A DNA stretch of 33,765 nucleotides, taken from an uncultured Oscillospiraceae bacterium (GTDB taxonomy: Bacteria > Bacillota > Clostridia > Oscillospirales > Oscillospiraceae). Below are positions 25,469 through 33,545 of this stretch, in pieces (within the stretch, counting starts at the first letter, position 1; each line of letters begins with the position of its first letter). Under the pieces are notes generated by a model, which saw nothing but the letters and a program-made list of their open reading frames with translations, was not told the DNA's origin and ran no database searches. The stretch is taken from the NCBI GenBank assembly GCA_947584295.1, contig CANPWM010000021.1, positions 1 through 33,765 on the forward strand, given 5' to 3'. Made by a program: the position numbers and the translations under genes.

Positions 25469-26971
25469 ATGGAATCGGCTAAACGGAAATATACGCTTTT
25501 CACGGCAAAACAGCTCTTGTGGCTTGTGGCGCCCATTGTGATCGAGCAGATTTTTTCCACCTCCTTGGGCTTTTTCGACTCGCTGATGGTGTCCAACATG
25601 AACGCCACCCAGGCCGTCAGGAGCAACGCCAGCAACGCCATCGGGAACGTGGACTACATCAACAACCTGATCATCCAGCTTTTCTCCGCCTTTGCCACCG
25701 GCGGCGCTATCGTCACCTCCCAGGCCCTGGGCGCGGGGGACAGGGAGCGGGCGAACAAGGTGGCCAAACAGCTCCTTATGCTGGTGATCTGCGTCTCCCT
25801 GGGCGTGGGAGGCGTGTGCCTTGTGCTGAACAGGCCGATCCTGAGGCTGTTTTACGGCAATGTGGACGCCTCCACCTTTGCCTATCAGCGGACGTATTTT
25901 TATGTAACCGCCGCGTCGTTCCCGTTTATCGGGCTATTCAACGCCTGCGCGGCGCTGCTGCGGGCGCAGAGAAAGAGCTTTTCCACCATGGCCAGCGCGG
26001 CCATCAGCTGTGTGGTCAATGTGGGCCTCAACGCCATCTTCCTGTTCGCGCTGAATATGGGCGTTCTGGGCGCGGGGCTTGCCACGCTGTTTTGCAGGGC
26101 GATCCCGGCGGTCTTTATGCTGGCGCTTCTGGGCGAAAAGGACAACGCCGTGCGTGTGCGGCTGGCGGAGAGGTTCCGCTTTGACGGGGCGATGATCAGG
26201 AGCATTTTGCGGCTGGCCGTACCCAGCGGCGTGGAGACGGCGCTTTTCCAGCTGGGGAAGCTGATGACCAATACCTTCGTCAACGCCGGGGTGTACGCCA
26301 CGGGGGCTAAGAGCATCACGGGGATCGACGAGGCGGGGGCGCTTGTCCACATCAATATCCAGGCCAACGGGAACGCCATCGCCAACCAGATCAACAACTT
26401 CGCCTCGGTGGTGGGCAGCGGCGTGGGGACCTCGTGCCTGACGGTCATCGGGCAATCCGTGGGCGCGGGGGATCAGGATCAGGTCAAATATTACATGAAG
26501 CGTATGTTCCTTATCTCCTATGTGGCCAACGGGATCTGCGTGGCGACGATCCTGGCGCTTATGCCGCTTCTGACGCAGCTTTACGGCTACGCCCAGGAGG
26601 CCAAGGCGATAGGGAGGCAGTGCCTTTATTTCTGCCTGGTCTTTCAGTTTTTCCTGTACCCGCTGTCCTTCACCGCGCCGTCTATCCTGAAGGCCACCAG
26701 CGACGTGAAATATGTGATGATCTGCGCGGTGGTATCTATGTTCACCATGCGGGTGAGCCTGGCGTTCCTGCTGACTACGGACCGGTTCCCCGGGTTGCCG
26801 GAGCTGGGCGCGATGGGCTACTGGATCGGCATGTGTTCCGACTGGGTACTGCGCTCCGTCCTCTTCTCGACGCGCCTGCTGTCGGGACGGTGGAAGAAGG
26901 CCTCGGGACTCATACGGGAACCGGCCAGGGAGACGGAGCAGGACGGCGAAAAGCGCCTGCGGACGTTGTAA
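25469..26971 (+). CDS. MATE family efflux transporter (second copy type)
   Basis: Membrane exporter of 500 residues, about twelve segments, distinct from the first MATE protein in sequence. Characteristic parts are LLWLVAPIVIEQIFSTSLGFFDSLMVSN, GGAIVTSQALGAGD and the second-half copy GTSCLTVIGQSVGAGD, AVPSGVETALFQLGKLM, and FNACAALLRAQRKS. The charged C-terminal tail of about 35 residues (KASGLIREPARETEQDGEKRLRTL) is longer than usual. The ribosome site GAGAGGG is weak. Substrate unknown. GC content jumps upward relative to the preceding sigma operon. Confidence 0.92.
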   Translation: MESAKRKYTLFTAKQLLWLVAPIVIEQIFSTSLGFFDSLMVSNMNATQAVRSNASNAIGNVDYINNLIIQLFSAFATGGAIVTSQALGAGDRERANKVAKQLLMLVICVSLGVGGVCLVLNRPILRLFYGNVDASTFAYQRTYFYVTAASFPFIGLFNACAALLRAQRKSFSTMASAAISCVVNVGLNAIFLFALNMGVLGAGLATLFCRAIPAVFMLALLGEKDNAVRVRLAERFRFDGAMIRSILRLAVPSGVETALFQLGKLMTNTFVNAGVYATGAKSITGIDEAGALVHINIQANGNAIANQINNFASVVGSGVGTSCLTVIGQSVGAGDQDQVKYYMKRMFLISYVANGICVATILALMPLLTQLYGYAQEAKAIGRQCLYFCLVFQFFLYPLSFTAPSILKATSDVKYVMICAVVSMFTMRVSLAFLLTTDRFPGLPELGAMGYWIGMCSDWVLRSVLFSTRLLSGRWKKASGLIREPARETEQDGEKRLRTL

Positions 26972-27125: not shown

Positions 27126-28562
27126 TTAAAGCTCGAACCAGAAGGTGCAACCGGTTTTGTTATCTACGCCAAATCTCGCTCTATGCGCTGTTAGAATTTC
27201 CTTTGCGATGGACAGGCCCAGCCCGGAAACGGCGGCTTTGTTTTGCCTCCTGCGGGCGGTGTAATAGCGATCCCAGATATAAGGGAGGTCCTCATCGGCG
27301 ATACCTTTGCCGTAATCGGTCACCGCAAACCGTGTGGAGCCGCCCCATGCTGTCAGCGACACCTTTATCTTTTTGCTGTCGTCCGTGTGGTTTACGGCGT
27401 TGTCGATGAAGTTGTAGATGACCCGTTTTAGCTGCGTCTCGTCCGCTCTCGCCGTAACGCCGTCCGCGATCTCGGTTTCAATGACATAGCCATTCTGCTG
27501 GCAGAACGGCGCAAACTGTTCGATTACGTCCCGAACCGCGCGGCTCAGGTCGATGACGCTGTACGCAAGCGGCACTCCGTCCGACTGCATGGCGGAAAAG
27601 TCCAGAATCTCGTTGACCAGCGCCGTCAGCCTGTCCGCCTCGCGGGTGATGATGTCCAGATCCTTTTCCCGCTTTTCCTCGTCGCTCCAGGAAATGTCTT
27701 TGACCATTTCCGCGTAGCCCTTTATCATGGTGAGGGGCGTCCGCAGATCGTGGGAGACGTTGGCTAAAAATTCCCGCTGGGCGTTTTGGGCCTTTTCCAA
27801 ACGCAATGCCGTCTCACCCAACGTATCGGACAGCTCGTCCAGCTCCGCGCAGAAGCCGCGTGGAAGTTCCGGGTGGAAGCTGCCGCCGGCGATTGCCTTG
27901 GCGGAGTCCGCAATCTGTGCTACCGGCTTTTCAAACCTCTTTGAAATGATCCAGGCAAGGACGAACCCCAAAACCAGAGAAAGAACGGAGACCCATACAA
28001 GCTGGAGCCGCAAGATTCGGACAGTGCCGCCCACAGTGCCGAGGGGCATACTGATATAGAGAACATTTCCGTCCGGAAGGACGCTCCCCGTCACATAGGC
28101 GGCGTTGTCCTCCGTGATAAAGCCGACGCGGCTTGTGTCGGATTCTTTGAGCTTTGCAATGAGCGATTCATAGCTGTACGGCAGATTGCGCAGCGCGCCC
28201 TTTTCCCAGTTCATCACGTCGCCTGAATGATACGGATTGTCCGTCCCTCCTTCTGCCTGCCTCGTGCCTCCGTAAAGACGCCTGTATGCGTCGGCGCTGT
28301 AAAGGATATTTCCCTGCATATCTGTCACGAATACAAGAAGGGAGTTCTCGGAGGCGGCTTTGTCGATGACAGCAGTAAAGTCCGTCTCCCCGGCATGGGC
28401 CACGATTTCCTTTGCCGCCCTTTCCACGCCGCGGATGGCCATATCGTTATAGAAGCTCTGCAAAAACACCGTCTGCAAGAGCCAGAGCACAAGAAAGATG
28501 GCGGCGGCAAAGACCGCGAACCACAGCCACAGCTTTACACCGAAGGACTTACGCTTTTTCAT
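27126..28562 (-). CDS. Two-component sensor histidine kinase
   Basis: Membrane kinase of 478 residues. Segment 1 is at about residues 11-35, an extracytoplasmic sensor of about 150 residues follows (PAS-like, with LLVFVTDMQGNILYSADAY and GNVLYISMPLG), then segment 2 at about 186-206, a HAMP linker (ISKRFEKPVAQIADSAKAI), the dimerisation helix with His271 (FLANVSHDLRTPLTMIKGY) and the ATPase domain (NFIDNAVNHT, DYGKGIADEDLPYIWDRYY, SGLGLSI). It overlaps the response-regulator gene by 14 bases. The signal is unknown. The small secreted repeat protein at the head of the same operon is a candidate ligand or accessory protein. Confidence 0.93.
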   Translation of the reverse strand: MKKRKSFGVKLWLWFAVFAAAIFLVLWLLQTVFLQSFYNDMAIRGVERAAKEIVAHAGETDFTAVIDKAASENSLLVFVTDMQGNILYSADAYRRLYGGTRQAEGGTDNPYHSGDVMNWEKGALRNLPYSYESLIAKLKESDTSRVGFITEDNAAYVTGSVLPDGNVLYISMPLGTVGGTVRILRLQLVWVSVLSLVLGFVLAWIISKRFEKPVAQIADSAKAIAGGSFHPELPRGFCAELDELSDTLGETALRLEKAQNAQREFLANVSHDLRTPLTMIKGYAEMVKDISWSDEEKREKDLDIITREADRLTALVNEILDFSAMQSDGVPLAYSVIDLSRAVRDVIEQFAPFCQQNGYVIETEIADGVTARADETQLKRVIYNFIDNAVNHTDDSKKIKVSLTAWGGSTRFAVTDYGKGIADEDLPYIWDRYYTARRRQNKAAVSGLGLSIAKEILTAHRARFGVDNKTGCTFWFEL

Positions 28563-29220
28563 CGAACCGATACCCCGTTCCCCGCAAAGTCACGATACAC
28601 TTCCGATACGGCCCCAGCTTGCCGCGCAGGAGCTTGATCTGCCAATCCACCGTGCGGTCATCGCCAAAGTAGTCGTAGCCCCACACGTTGTTCAATATGT
28701 TCTCCCGCGTCAGGGCGATGCCTTTGTTCTCAATGAGATAGACAAGCAGCTCATACTCCTTGGCGGTCAGCTCCGTCTTTGCACCGTCTACAAAGACCTC
28801 ATGGGAGAGCATGTCTATGCGCAGACCCTGTATCACGATCTCCTGTTTCGGTTTTCCCGCAGTGTGCCTTGCCAGGACCGCCTTGACCCGCGCCATCAGC
28901 TCGCGAGGGGAGAAGGGCTTCACCACATAGTCGTCGATGCCCAATTCAAAGCCCATCAGCTTGTCGTACTCGGTGCCAAGTGCCGACAGCATGATAACGG
29001 GCGTCGGCTTTAGCTTGCGAATCTCCTTGCAGGCGGTGAACCCGTCCATCTCCGGCATCATAATGTCGAGGATAATCAGGTCATAGTCGTTCTCGCCGCA
29101 CAGGCGGACGGCCTCTTTGCCGTTATCCGCCGTATCAATGGTGTGCCCCTCATGCTCAGCGAAACGGGAAATGAGCTCAACGATGTCCCTCTCGTCATCG
29201 ACAGCCAACAGGTAAGCCAT
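28549..29220 (-). CDS. OmpR-family response regulator
   Basis: DNA-binding regulator of 223 residues. Receiver domain with acidic DDE (8-10), phospho-acceptor D52 in LIILDIMMPEMDG, PVIMLSA and Lys in VVKPFS. A winged-helix effector follows (LTAKEYELLVYLIENKGIALTRENILNNVWGYDYFGDDRTVDWQI, closing RGTGYRF). The start at ATG 29220 has AGGAGG six bases upstream and begins MAYLLAVDDE as family members do; further upstream in-frame residues are not coding. It is the middle gene of the operon, between the secreted protein and the kinase. Confidence 0.94.
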   Translation of the reverse strand: MAYLLAVDDERDIVELISRFAEHEGHTIDTADNGKEAVRLCGENDYDLIILDIMMPEMDGFTACKEIRKLKPTPVIMLSALGTEYDKLMGFELGIDDYVVKPFSPRELMARVKAVLARHTAGKPKQEIVIQGLRIDMLSHEVFVDGAKTELTAKEYELLVYLIENKGIALTRENILNNVWGYDYFGDDRTVDWQIKLLRGKLGPYRKCIVTLRGTGYRFDEKA

Positions 29221-29246
29221 GATTGTCCTCCTGGATAACGCAAAAC

Positions 29247-29271
29247 GCAAACCGCCCCTTGGACGGTTTGC
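29247..29271 (-). terminator. Hairpin between the secreted-protein gene and the response regulator
   Basis: Minus strand GCAAACCG pairs with CGGTTTGC, followed by GTTTTGCG. Repeats of CGCAAAA lie on both sides. It ends about 27 bases before the regulator start and could reduce, rather than stop, transcription into the kinase genes. Confidence 0.5.
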
Positions 29272-29294
29272 CATTTTGCGAATTTTGCGTTTTG

Positions 29295-30070: not shown

Positions 30071-30237
30071 GCCGCGGTTACTTTTCTAATACAAAAAAGC
30101 TGCTGAATAGATGTCAAGGCGCTCAATGAATTGTTGGCCTCAAAGAAGAATATCTTTCCAGTAGCTTTTCCGCGACAGTTGGGGTATTGTGTGTTTGCCT
30201 CACGAGGACGAATCACAAAAGGGGAGAGGGCTGTAAG

Positions 30238-31413
30238 ATGGCAAGCATCAGAAAACGGGGCGGCGGGTACCTGATCATCGTATCCATGGGCTATGACCAC
30301 AACGGCAAGCGCCGCCCACCCCAACAAAAGACCGTTCACCCGCCGGAGGGGTTGACCCAAAAGCAGACGGACAAGTGGCTACAGGAACAGGCAACGCTGT
30401 TCGAGATGACCTGCAAGAACATCACGCCGAAAAGAAATCCAAACACCACATTGGCCGAATACACGGAAATCTGGCTCCGGGACATAGCGCCGACGAAGCT
30501 GGCGAAGTCCACCGTCATCCGAGAAAGGCAGGACACGGAGCGCTTCCTCCCCGTCCTCGGCGGGTACAAGCTCACGGAGCTGACGGCAGATCACTTCCGC
30601 AAGCTCTACGCGGATATGCGCCGCAAGAAAAACAAAAATACAGGAAAACCGCTCGACCAGGCGACCATCGAGGGTGTCCACGCGTGCTTGTGTGGAATTC
30701 TCTCCGACGCCGTGGAGGGCGGTTATCTTGACAGGAACCCGGCGTGGAGGGCCTTCAAATACTCAGGCAAGAAGTTCAAGCGACCCGCCGCAGACGAGGA
30801 AACGGCGGCGCAAATCATCACGGCGCTGGGACAGGAGAACATCAAGTACGAGACGTACTTCAAGCTGGTCATCTCCACAGGGATGAGGAGAGGGGAGTGC
30901 TGCGGACTCAAGTGGAGCGACTTCGACCGCACTGACCACACCATTCATATCCACCGCAACGTGGTGAAGCTCACGGGCGAGGACATCATCGTGAAGGCGC
31001 CGAAAACCGCAGCTGGCGACAGGTACGTCTACTTCTCCGCCGAGATGGAAGCCCTGCTGGAAGATTACCGAAAATACTGCGAGGACGAGGCGGAGCAGTA
31101 TGAGAAAAGGCAAATCACCGATGACGATTACCTTTTCCGCCGCAAGGGGACGAGCCTCCCGATGACACCCAATTCATTCACATGGAGATTTAAAAATATC
31201 CTTCACAAATACAGCTTGCCGGACAACCTTAACGTTCACAGCCTCCGCCACACGGCGGCGAGCTTAATGATTGCTGGCGGCACCGACCCCGCCACCGTCG
31301 CCGGCCTCTTGGGCCACTCTCAAATCAGCACGACCCTGGAAATTTACACCCACGCTTTCGACAAAAATAAACGCGCGGCCAGTGAGAAGCTTCAGGAAGC
31401 GCTGGAGGTGTGA
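30238..31413 (+). CDS. Tyrosine recombinase / phage-type integrase
   Basis: Site-specific recombinase of 391 residues. The N-terminal arm-binding segment begins MASIRKRGGGYLIIVSMGYD, a core-binding SAM-like domain spans about 70-170 (TTLAEYTEIWL...YKLTELTADHFRKLY), and the catalytic domain has R217 (TGMRRGE), H334 and R337 (HSLRHT), H360 (LLGHS) and nucleophile Y370 (LEIYTHAF). All five are present, so it should be active. GGGGAGAGGG lies about eight bases before ATG 30238. It is typical of integrative elements of Firmicutes, but no excisionase or transfer genes are beside it here. Confidence 0.95.
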   Translation: MASIRKRGGGYLIIVSMGYDHNGKRRPPQQKTVHPPEGLTQKQTDKWLQEQATLFEMTCKNITPKRNPNTTLAEYTEIWLRDIAPTKLAKSTVIRERQDTERFLPVLGGYKLTELTADHFRKLYADMRRKKNKNTGKPLDQATIEGVHACLCGILSDAVEGGYLDRNPAWRAFKYSGKKFKRPAADEETAAQIITALGQENIKYETYFKLVISTGMRRGECCGLKWSDFDRTDHTIHIHRNVVKLTGEDIIVKAPKTAAGDRYVYFSAEMEALLEDYRKYCEDEAEQYEKRQITDDDYLFRRKGTSLPMTPNSFTWRFKNILHKYSLPDNLNVHSLRHTAASLMIAGGTDPATVAGLLGHSQISTTLEIYTHAFDKNKRAASEKLQEALEV

Positions 31414-31733: not shown

Positions 31734-33044
31734 TTAATAACGTTCTTCGGCAGCTTCAGCTTCGATGGGATAGCGGTACCGGCTCAAAATACTCCCAAAA
31801 ACCAGGCAAAGGACGATGCCGGAAACGCCTAGCATGAGCATCATCAGGGCCGCGCCGGAGCCGCCGCCGGTTCCAAAGAGGAGGGCCGGAATCCCTGATG
31901 CGTGGGTCATCAGAGGCGCACAGACCTTGTCCACCATAAAGCCTCCGAGAAAGGTGCCGATGGGGATGGTGAAAAACTGCAAGGTGTTCCGGCAGGAGAA
32001 GACGCGCCCCTGCATCTCGGTGGGGACCGTGGAGCGTATGATCACGTCCATATTGGCGTTCATAAGCGGAATCACAGACCAGCCGGCCAGCTGCGCCAGA
32101 CACCACCACAGGGGTGTCCGGACAAAGGCGAGGATGAGATTTTCAACTCCCAGCGAGAACAGGATGGAGACGACGATCACGCGGACGCGGTTTTTCGGCG
32201 GGGGCAGGAGTGTGGCAAGGACACTCCCCAGAAGTGAGGCGAACCCCGCGCAGGCCGTCACCAGGCCCAGCGCCGCCTCGCCGCCGTTCTCCCGCGAGAG
32301 CACATAGGGAGGCAGGACGGCGTCAAAGGCCGAGGCGATCAGATTTACCCCGGCGAGAAACAGGATGAGCCGGAGAATGAGGCTGTTATTCCGAAGGTAG
32401 GAAAGCCCGTCCCTGGCGCTTGCCAGGAGTCCCTCTTTATCTGCTCCTTCGGACGGTGCGGCAGGGGAGGGAATGCGGACAACGAATAGGAGCGCCCCGA
32501 ACGCCGCGAAAAAGGTACACAGATCCACATAGATCACCCCGGATAGACCGGCCAGCGAAAAGAGCGCCGTGGCGAGGATCGGGTGCAGGATGGTGTTGAG
32601 AGAGTTGGTGAAGGACTTGAGGCCGCTGACCCGCTGGTAGTGCTCCTTCGGCGTCAGCAACGTCATGGCCACGTCTCCGGCGGGGCTTTGCACCGTGTTC
32701 ATAAGTCCGTTCAGAGCGTTCAGAACGTAGAGATGCCAGGGTCGCAGAGAGGCTGTTTTCAGCAAAACCAGCACCGCAACAGTACACAGCGCGGCGAAGG
32801 CGTCCGAGATCAGCATGGTTTTCCGCTTGTCCCATCTGTCGGAGAGGGCGCCGGCGAAGATGCTCATCAGCACATAGGGCGCGTAGGAGCAAACGGATGC
32901 CAGCGCCATTTTCAGCGCCGAGCTGGTGGCCTCATAGAGCCACAGCGTCAGCGCGAAGCCCGTCATGGAGCTTCCCAGCCGCGAGAGGGACTGGGTTGAC
33001 CAGAGAATGAGGAACGGTTTGAGTTCTTGAATCGTCTTTTTCAT
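31734..33044 (-). CDS. MFS transporter, macrolide-efflux (MFS_3/Mef-like) type
   Basis: Drug-export type permease of 436 residues with about twelve membrane segments. Landmarks are the N terminus FLILWSTQSLSRLGSSMTGFALTLWLYEAT, the loop GALSDRWDKRKTMLISD (motif A), and the second-half PTEMQGRVFSCRNTLQFFTIPIGTFLGGFMVDKV, which is typical of Mef-like proteins. AAGGAG lies 10 bases before the ATG and is hidden by a stem in the leader RNA. The gene sits alone between a terminator and a leader-peptide region, as expected for an inducible resistance gene. The actual substrate is not established by sequence. Confidence 0.88.
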   Translation of the reverse strand: MKKTIQELKPFLILWSTQSLSRLGSSMTGFALTLWLYEATSSALKMALASVCSYAPYVLMSIFAGALSDRWDKRKTMLISDAFAALCTVAVLVLLKTASLRPWHLYVLNALNGLMNTVQSPAGDVAMTLLTPKEHYQRVSGLKSFTNSLNTILHPILATALFSLAGLSGVIYVDLCTFFAAFGALLFVVRIPSPAAPSEGADKEGLLASARDGLSYLRNNSLILRLILFLAGVNLIASAFDAVLPPYVLSRENGGEAALGLVTACAGFASLLGSVLATLLPPPKNRVRVIVVSILFSLGVENLILAFVRTPLWWCLAQLAGWSVIPLMNANMDVIIRSTVPTEMQGRVFSCRNTLQFFTIPIGTFLGGFMVDKVCAPLMTHASGIPALLFGTGGGSGAALMMLMLGVSGIVLCLVFGSILSRYRYPIEAEAAEERY

Positions 33045-33049
33045 TTTGA

Positions 33050-33148
33050 CCTTGCTCCTTTGATTTTATAAGATCAAACCGCAAGGCCGGGGGATGAACG
33101 CTGTCAAGTCGTTATCGCTCCACGCAGTATCCCCAAACCTTGCGTGGA
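33050..33148 (-). promoter_or_regulatory. Candidate attenuator: alternative RNA stems upstream of the MFS gene
   Basis: On the minus strand three stems exclude each other. Stem A is TCCACGCA (33148-33141) with TGCGTGGA (33126-33119), inside the leader ORF. Stem B is CGCAAGG (33144-33138) and GGGGAT (33134-33129) with CCTTGCG (33086-33080) and ATCCCC (33095-33090). Stem C is CCTTGC (33086-33081) plus TTTGAT (33078-33073) with ATCAAA (33064-33059) plus GCAAGG (33055-33050). C encloses the AAGGAG ribosome site (33060-33055) of the exporter. A and C can coexist (off); B breaks both (on). Confidence 0.7.
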
Positions 33149-33192
33149 GCTGAGACAATCGCCAAAAAAGAGCAGGAGCCGATCGAGAACAT
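33112..33192 (-). CDS. 26-codon leader peptide of the MFS exporter
   Basis: ATG 33192 lies nine bases after GGAGG (33206-33202). The peptide begins MFSIGSCSFLAIVSAP and ends GYCVER before TAA (33114-33112). It overlaps both arms of stem A and one arm of stem B of the attenuator, so a stalled ribosome would change folding. It lies 67 bases upstream of the exporter, same direction. It does not match leader peptides of erm or mef genes that I remember. Confidence 0.6.
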   Translation of the reverse strand: MFSIGSCSFLAIVSAPRKVWGYCVER

Positions 33193-33220
33193 TGCAGAAC
33201 ACCTCCAAAATGTGAGAAAA

Positions 33221-33246
33221 CCATGAAAAACGATTGCTTTTCATGG
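33221..33246 (-). terminator. Hairpin upstream of the leader ORF
   Basis: CCATGAAAA and TTTTCATGG form a nine-bp stem; on the minus strand TTTTCTC follows. It may end the small gene at 33258-33545 or be a first attenuation step in the MFS leader. A possible promoter, TTGACA (33295-33290), lies inside the end of that gene, with a poor -10. Confidence 0.45.
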
Positions 33247-33257
33247 CGTTAGGTACG

Positions 33258-33545
33258 TCAATTGTGATTTATGTTTAAGCCAGAGGTATTGTCAAATCCA
33301 CCCTCTTGAGAAAATTGAAGGATCAAATGCGCGGTAGATGTGATGATTTCTCTGTATTTGCTCAATTCCGCCTGGGAAAATCCGCAAACATCCTCCCACT
33401 TATACGCCGGAAGCCAGCAAACCGCGCTGTGAAAACCGTCTTTTTCATCAGGTTTTTCAATATAAACCTTCACGCTTTTGTTATCAAGCATCTCAGAGTG
33501 GACAATTTCGGTTCCGTCATTCAGCGTAAGAAATGGATACATCAT
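33258..33545 (-). CDS. Small uncharacterised protein, about 95 residues
   Basis: The reading frame extends upstream, but those codons cover the tRNA remnant and its terminator, so I place the start at ATG 33545 (ATG 33542 equally possible). The protein starts MMYPFLTLNDGTEIVHSE, has the acidic middle KVYIEKPDEKDGFHSAVCWL, and ends with a helix STAHLILQFSQEGG. I recall similar short proteins in mobile-element surroundings but no function. The ribosome site is poor (GCGGGG) and the tRNA terminator lies only 24 bases upstream, so its source of transcription is unclear. Confidence 0.6.
   Translation of the reverse strand: MMYPFLTLNDGTEIVHSEMLDNKSVKVYIEKPDEKDGFHSAVCWLPAYKWEDVCGFSQAELSKYREIITSTAHLILQFSQEGGFDNTSGLNINHN

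Follow-up and report, generated by a model that had tools for sequence, protein, structure and literature searches.

The DNA analysed here (the window, 33,765 nucleotides from an uncultured Oscillospiraceae bacterium) carries on its minus strand, in 5' to 3' order, a GGAGG Shine-Dalgarno sequence (33206-33202), a 26-codon leader ORF whose ATG lies 9 nt further on (33192-33112; MFSIGSCSFLAIVSAPRKVWGYCVER, then a stop codon) and the gene for a 436-residue MFS exporter (33044-31734). A first-pass annotation of this DNA had described a short leader ORF with its own GGAGG upstream of a Mef-like exporter. The ORF and its ribosome site are indeed where that description placed them. The gene product is likewise an MFS exporter, scoring above cut-off with PF07690 and PF05977 and reaching 184 bits, under that model's cut-off, with TIGR00900, but its kinship with Mef is only distant: models of Mef macrolide exporters give 99-110 bits against curated cut-offs of 675-870, which are not reached (110 against 870 for Mef(C)).

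The sole promoter-like site found on the minus strand (33487-33459) is upstream of the leader, and a minus-strand scan of 33000-33500 detected no terminator-like site. A hairpin just 5' of the leader Shine-Dalgarno sequence (CCATGAAAAGC..TTTTTCATGG followed by TTTTC; 33246-33216, minus strand), missed by the criteria of that scan, looks like either a terminator of the upstream ORF or an additional 5' UTR element.

The surroundings of the exporter hint at mobility. A tRNA-like 3' half with a CCA end (33656-33593, minus strand), in which ARAGORN finds no whole tRNA, resembles stretches in four phage records and may be an attachment site; on the other side of the exporter is a tyrosine integrase (30187-31413, plus strand). 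Together, these two features suggest an integrative element that carries the exporter as cargo. Besides the window locus, only one integrase was found near the exporter relatives analysed, 26% identical (L069). Within the genus the exporter is patchy, with copies of at least 74% identity in six of 34 genomes including the window's own; one genus copy is fragmented and one has an internal stop. The window also holds a histidine kinase/response regulator pair (27126-29274, minus strand) and a MATE transporter (25469-26971, plus strand).

Competing helices between leader and exporter

On the minus strand, the RNA that runs from within the leader to just ahead of the exporter contains a hairpin of 10 bp as defined by our alignment (P1; 5' arm 33150-33141, loop 33140-33127, 3' arm 33126-33117) and three further pairing regions. 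Region 2 (33143-33129) is the 5' strand of an alternative, anti-sequester helix, 2:3; region 3 (33095-33081) is the partner of either region 2 or region 4; and region 4 (33064-33048; ATCAAAGGAGCAAGGTC) pairs both with TTTGAT (33078-33073) and with part of region 3 (33088-33081), and includes the exporter Shine-Dalgarno GGAG (33058-33055). The leader hairpin had been put at 8 bp in the first-pass annotation; the hairpin stands, its length does not. The other two stems are as proposed. The alternative stem consists of a 7-bp part, CGCAAGG/CCTTGCG, and a 6-bp part, GGGGAT/ATCCCC, separated by two G-U pairs and a mismatch, so that 14 of 15 alignment columns are paired in the window, and the stem burying the exporter ribosome site consists of TTTGAT/ATCAAA (6 bp) and GGCCTTGC/GCAAGGTC, where eight of eight columns are paired, one of them as a wobble. 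The GGA of the Shine-Dalgarno sequence forms an internal loop between the two parts of 3:4. Because P1 and 2:3 overlap at 33143-33141, and region 3 is common to 2:3 and 3:4, the mutual exclusion of these folds is real.

Folding of 33040-33260, the stretch that had been suggested for it, gives -73.9 kcal/mol, compared with -58.45 (sd 4.19) for 200 shuffled sequences (z -3.69; 0/200). The predicted minimum for the free window RNA goes beyond the first reading in that it combines 2:3 with pairing of GCTCC in the 5' arm of P1 to GGAGC at the Shine-Dalgarno sequence; the ribosome site would therefore be buried in that state too.

A leader peptide under coding selection

From 358 exporter relatives found by scanning genome contigs we retained the best 80; one more came from a viral scan, and two loci with cut 5' ends (L026 and L055) were dropped, leaving 80 loci including the window. 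Near-duplicates are present (L007/L008), while the genus copies L190-L193, whose leaders are identical to those of L003-L006, were not counted again. A degenerate P1 motif (at most ten substitutions in 34 bases) is present in 73 of these 80 loci, drawn as they are from the best 80 of 358, and a covariance model adds L061, L063 and L071, bringing the element to 76/80 in the same selection; neither motif nor model matched it in L016, L040, L047 and L079. At E up to 0.05, it was matched in none of six exporter paralogues at 22-29% identity (L195-L200). In the exporter leaders of L120/L172 and L175 the peptide start and P1 are kept and regions 3 and 4 are missing (72-95 nt in all); these are possibly degenerate or simplified switches. 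The element also precedes an exporter at 2272-2449 of L127, a 386-kb record labelled as a plasmid of Subdoligranulum variabile, and another on a viral contig (L002).

The first-pass annotation had named loss of the leader ORF in homologues as an argument against its reading, but the relatives retain the ORF, in 73/80 loci by motif and with the marks of coding selection. The usual leader has 12 codons, M-x-L-x-I-A-x-A-P-C-K/R-V/A-stop. A Shine-Dalgarno sequence of at least four bases precedes the chosen start in all 73 motif-bearing loci, the start having been picked by that score. Leucine occupies codon -5 in 68 of the 73, by way of several Leu codons, and isoleucine codon -3 in 58. Over the seven codons before the stems, the share of one-base codon differences that are synonymous is 0.511 in frame, compared with 0.157 and 0.113 in the shifted frames, as counted over pairs of loci, which are hence not independent. 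Judged from such comparisons, the exporter leader ORF is under coding selection, and this selection, with the Shine-Dalgarno sequences of 73 loci, points to a short leader ORF of translated type, as an erm-type attenuator would have.

Short leader ORFs followed by competing helices are also the classic layout of amino-acid starvation attenuators, where the ribosome on the leader pauses until a scarce charged tRNA arrives. The peptides argue otherwise: they contain no run of one codon, the cysteine codon gives way to Arg, Tyr or Ser in 10/73 loci, and the residue that comes closest to invariance is leucine, which has many synonymous codons. Since, in addition, the downstream genes are exporters and genes of ribosome-protection type and not biosynthetic ones, we regard starvation control as very improbable.

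Directly after V/A, 66 of 73 loci have TGA, the window and L003-L006 TGG or CGG, L066 AGA and L056 TAA. In the window clade the peptide reads on past the former stop to WGYCVER or RGYCVER/RGYCAER, and the 26-codon peptide of the window is a lengthened form of the 12-codon one (M-x-L-x-I-A-x-A-P-C-K/R-V) in which the stop codon has turned into Trp. This clade has an N-terminal extension too, yet FLAIV-x-AP lies at an unchanged distance from P1, which suggests that the stall point is set by the distance to the hairpin, not by the start codon. That the peptide might be new, as initially supposed, is consistent with our search of one literature library, from which subscription papers are largely missing and in which no such peptide was found.

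Covariation of the helices

Our alignment comprises 55 of the 73 motif-bearing loci, namely the 56 whose motif lies no more than 130 nt from the exporter start, minus L024 (ambiguous bases). Stems lacking compensatory changes had been anticipated as a second argument against the switch; changes on both sides are in fact seen in all three helices over these 55 loci. P1 is paired in 95.9% of cells, with 4/10 pairs changed on both sides, helix 2:3 in 96.0%, with 6/15, and the 8-bp part of 3:4 in 95.8%, with two. A compensated example is L056, where the change of TGA to TAA is accompanied by a matching change in the partner strand. Covariation scores are 0.142 for P1 plus 3:4, compared with 0.105 in shuffles, and 0.246 for 2:3, compared with 0.195, and none of 500 shuffles reaches the observed value in either case; both scores also exceed all six of their slid controls (at most 0.038 and 0.121, respectively). 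Two measures are less discriminating. The count of 'further pair types' does not rise above shuffles, 126/500 reaching the observed value for P1 plus 3:4 and 464/500 for 2:3, and the six pairs of 2:3 changed on both sides are equalled by one slid control (six pairs, but 10 cells against 36). A shuffle test in which one word had to pair with two others gave, for 25 loci, six where no more than two of 100 shuffles reached the observed length; as this test was too strict (few wobbles, no bulges, and no word at all in 5/25), it was replaced by the alignment-based counts.

In the alignments, then, mutually exclusive helices occur, one of which buries the downstream ribosome site. We conclude from this comparative evidence, which is strong, that the proposed attenuator is a real element.

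Ribosome position and predicted opening of the switch

For leaders occupied by a ribosome, folding was predicted with an assumed footprint that blocks 15 nt upstream and 16 nt downstream of the P-site, and the predicted stall codon is uncertain by one codon. Over the 55 leaders, mean predicted probabilities of 2:3 and 3:4 are 0.51/0.46 in the free RNA, 0.67/0.32 with the ribosome at codon -4, 0.91/0.11 at -3, 0.50/0.77 at -2 and 0.01/0.95 at +1. When the leading edge is scanned, the predicted probability of 3:4 is below 0.3 in 47, 50 and 50 of 55 leaders for edges +4 to +6, and in 7/55 at +8. The switch is thus predicted to open at one codon, -3, the conserved isoleucine of L-x-I-A.

Predicted accessibility of the exporter start region (-20 to +3) likewise peaks at codon -3, at a mean of 0.54 compared with 0.40 in the free RNA and 0.36-0.40 from -2 on. 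The predicted gain is modest, with values above 0.6 in 16/55 loci at codon -3 and 1/55 when free. Unpairing of the Shine-Dalgarno sequence alone, at 0.49 both in the stalled state and at later ribosome positions, does not separate the states and is uninformative because the GGA sits in the internal loop of 3:4; opening was accordingly rescored by helix probabilities and over the whole ribosome region. In the window itself the predicted opening is weak (0.32 at codon -3, 0.28 free), since leader codons 5-6 contain another GCTCC able to pair with the Shine-Dalgarno sequence. Accessibility there is predicted to reach 0.55 only when ribosomes cover the upstream leader as well (60 nt), with 0.39-0.40 further on. 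In 45% of loci, 3:4 is predicted not to dominate in the free RNA.

Could the conserved RNA do no more than sequester the ribosome site, lowering or coupling translation without any inducer? Sequestration is indeed predicted and the changes in accessibility are modest, as such a structure would have it. However, it would leave unexplained both the conserved, covarying third partner in 2:3 and the concentration of peptide selection at the codons predicted to open the switch, and we therefore think it most unlikely.

The same RNA before other genes

With a covariance model trained on exporter leaders alone (R1; E up to 0.001 per genome), matches were obtained in the window's own genome (1/1), in 15/150 family genomes and in 29/391 class genomes. 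The family and class scans give 45 distinct places, of which 30, some of them also sequences of the training set, are before MFS exporters, 12 before other genes, and three are unassigned (L092, at a contig end, L119 and L121). The 12 non-exporter genes encode CatA-like proteins (3), Cfr (1), a TrmH-type methyltransferase (1), a radical SAM protein (1) and members of the CD3324 family (6). A second, broader model that includes divergent members (R2) has matches in 14/398 phylum genomes and 43/391 class genomes, and adds Lsa ABC-F and FusB-like genes. Both models' scans together give 78 distinct places: 35 before MFS exporters, 26 before CD3324-family genes, three before CatA-like, two before Cfr and one each before Lsa ABC-F, TrmH-type, radical SAM and FusB-like genes, with none assigned in eight.

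Classes of downstream genes were assigned by blastp to about eleven reference proteins taken from the same loci, and family membership was called on one representative per class. Representatives of Cfr (677.8 against a cut-off of 468), Lsa (762.6 against 750) and CD3324 (113 against 65) pass, as does the ABC-F protein of L178 with the ribosomal-protection model (402 against 380). The CatA-like protein falls under the CatA cut-off (209.8 against 270), with PF00302 present, the Vat-like protein under its own (235 against 300) and the FusB-like protein under those for Fus, with PF07299 and PF16571 present. The methyltransferases carry PF00588, and the radical SAM protein of L095 does not count among known resistance proteins.

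Other genes of these kinds stand second or later behind the element: Vat-like after CD3324 (L097, L154, L177) or CatA-like genes (L117, L118), TrmH-type (L165, L189), FusB-like (L157, L174 and L160, where the first ORF has no assigned class) and ABC-F genes (L171, L178), as well as GNAT and metallo-hydrolase genes. CD3324-family proteins, of about 90 residues and with weak Mor/HTH similarity, are the commonest non-exporter products behind the switch (L122, L123, L124, L126, L152-L159, L162, L164-L169, L171, L173, L174, L176-L178), and their genes are often first in small operons that also hold Vat-like, methyltransferase, FusB-like, GNAT or metallo-hydrolase genes; our literature search found no paper on the family. 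On plasmids, the element is present at all four CD3324 loci fetched, of five records found, and at one of these (Pseudalkalibacillus) an annotated FusB/FusC family gene is next. Six well-known or related mobile genes, cfr(C), cfr, a Priestia Lsa, lsa(E), a Pusillibacter CatA-like gene and a Paraclostridium catA (L201-L204, L209, L210), gave no match at E up to 0.05 (0/6), so the element does not generally accompany the Cfr, Lsa and CatA families.

How far can the weaker matches be trusted? Of 103 rows from the first model, 92 are in sense and 11 are on the opposite strand or over the palindromic hairpin; the best of these 11 reaches 29.3 bits, and true-looking sense matches do no better (L125 and L126, 28.6; L097, 25.9; L061, 25.0). 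As score alone does not separate them, weak matches rest on position, orientation, the second model and covariation of 2:3. In 36 non-exporter members P1 is changed on both sides in 8/10 pairs, and 2:3 is 92.9% paired, changed on both sides in 7/11 pairs, and scores 0.301 for covariation with slid controls of at most 0.093, although the model used to align them does not contain 2:3.

The frame in which the leader traverses the hairpin was called from a start chosen, heuristically, by Shine-Dalgarno score. One frame is used in 32/35 exporter leaders (L112, among the other three, also has the usual frame) and in all three CatA-like loci, another in the two Cfr loci and in the single TrmH, radical SAM and Lsa loci, and CD3324 loci are split 12, 12 and 2 among the frames. 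Gene classes thus differ in the frame that crosses the helix; what they have in common is the RNA.

An RNA conserved across gene classes, when neither peptide nor frame is, would fit a ligand-binding riboswitch, in which a small molecule and not a stalled ribosome picks the fold and the ORF is incidental. Nevertheless, coding selection is strong in the exporter leaders, the codon predicted to open the switch coincides with conserved peptide residues, and most of the conserved bases lie in the competing helices and the ribosome site, with no evident conserved unpaired pocket. A riboswitch is in our view improbable.

A proposed model for induction

We consider it highly probable that the element is an erm-type translational attenuator, built on a new RNA family and induced by ribosome-acting drugs. 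With no inducer present, ribosomes would traverse the short leader ORF and the RNA behind them would fold with the exporter ribosome site buried, either by 3:4 (together with P1) or by the 5' arm of P1 (together with 2:3). A drug would stall the ribosome early in the leader ORF, so that its front edge covers the 5' arm of P1 but region 2 stays free; 2:3 could then form, 3:4 would be excluded and the exporter would be translated. The P-site of the stalled ribosome is expected at codon 4-5 of M-x-L-x-I-A in the canonical leader, and at the matching codons 11-12 of MFSIGSCSFLAIV in the window. Attenuation at the level of translation is likelier than at that of transcription, because no U-run follows 3:4; a transcriptional attenuator of Mef(E)L/MsrDL type was rejected for this reason and from the outcome of the terminator scan.

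Judging from the neighbours across the family, the inducer is most likely a drug that acts on the ribosome. That a ribosome-acting compound induces the exporter, as suggested earlier, becomes more credible in that the RNA also stands before further genes of ribosome-drug resistance type. The exporter leaders are one branch of a wider RNA family found before several unrelated genes of that type. A more far-reaching idea, to which we give an even chance, is that one RNA switch has been re-used as an interchangeable front end for many such genes (MFS exporter, Cfr, CatA-like, Vat-like, TrmH-type methyltransferase, Lsa and other ABC-F, FusB-like and CD3324 operons). The switch would sense where the ribosome stops and not which peptide it has made, peptide and reading frame being exchanged and the RNA kept, with each lineage fitting its stall peptide to its own drug.

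Through this covarying RNA, which Rfam 15 lacks, exporter, Cfr, CatA-like, Lsa, FusB-like and methyltransferase genes are linked. It can serve as a probe in searches for resistance-type genes that are inducible, CD3324 operons with uncharacterised members among them, in Bacillota of gut and soil. A further question becomes testable with it: whether the RNA senses ribosome position in general or peptide-specific arrest only.

Comparison with known attenuators

Rfam 15 gave no match at the element in the window (gathering threshold), nor in its relatives (11 searched at E up to 5, and 12 at E up to 2), and nothing like it was found in the available literature, which includes two structured-RNA surveys and from which subscription papers are largely missing.

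Known resistance attenuators have mostly been described gene by gene, the common part that has been noted (RLR-type) lying in the peptide, and staphylococcal fusB has been described as translationally attenuated. Attenuators of the ErmC type have a short leader ORF, a stall-dependent exchange of helices and a downstream ribosome site that is buried when the drug is absent. Our element resembles them in its short leader ORF, exclusive helices and buried downstream ribosome site, and we infer a stall-dependent exchange here as well. Its leader peptide, however, is unlike the Erm leaders we know of, no RNA sequence is known to be common to the element and erm attenuators, and it would control exporters, Cfr, CatA-like and other genes, not erm.

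The ErmC-type layout is described in PMC4335068, as is Mef(E)L (MTASMRLR), which acts on transcription via a Rho-independent terminator. As in mef(E)/mel, a leader peptide precedes an MFS exporter, here distantly related to the macrolide exporter; unlike Mef(E)L, the window element has no terminator after 3:4 and its peptide no RLR. According to the same text, mef(E) and erm(K) share a peptide with no RNA homology, the opposite of the present case, where the RNA is common and the peptide varies. The MsrDL leader, MYLIFM, is similar in being very short and hydrophobic, but according to PMC10314930 its drug-dependent stall is at codon 6, at the stop codon, and works on a terminator, whereas the stall predicted here is at sense codons. 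The uORFC-6-1 motif, found before hflX in Bacillales, combines structured RNA and a uORF and has been proposed as a stalled-ribosome sensor (PMC8632094); by that description it is set apart from our element by an RLR peptide and a different downstream gene. As a mechanism, what we propose belongs to a known kind; what appears to be new is the RNA family, together with its spread over unrelated genes.
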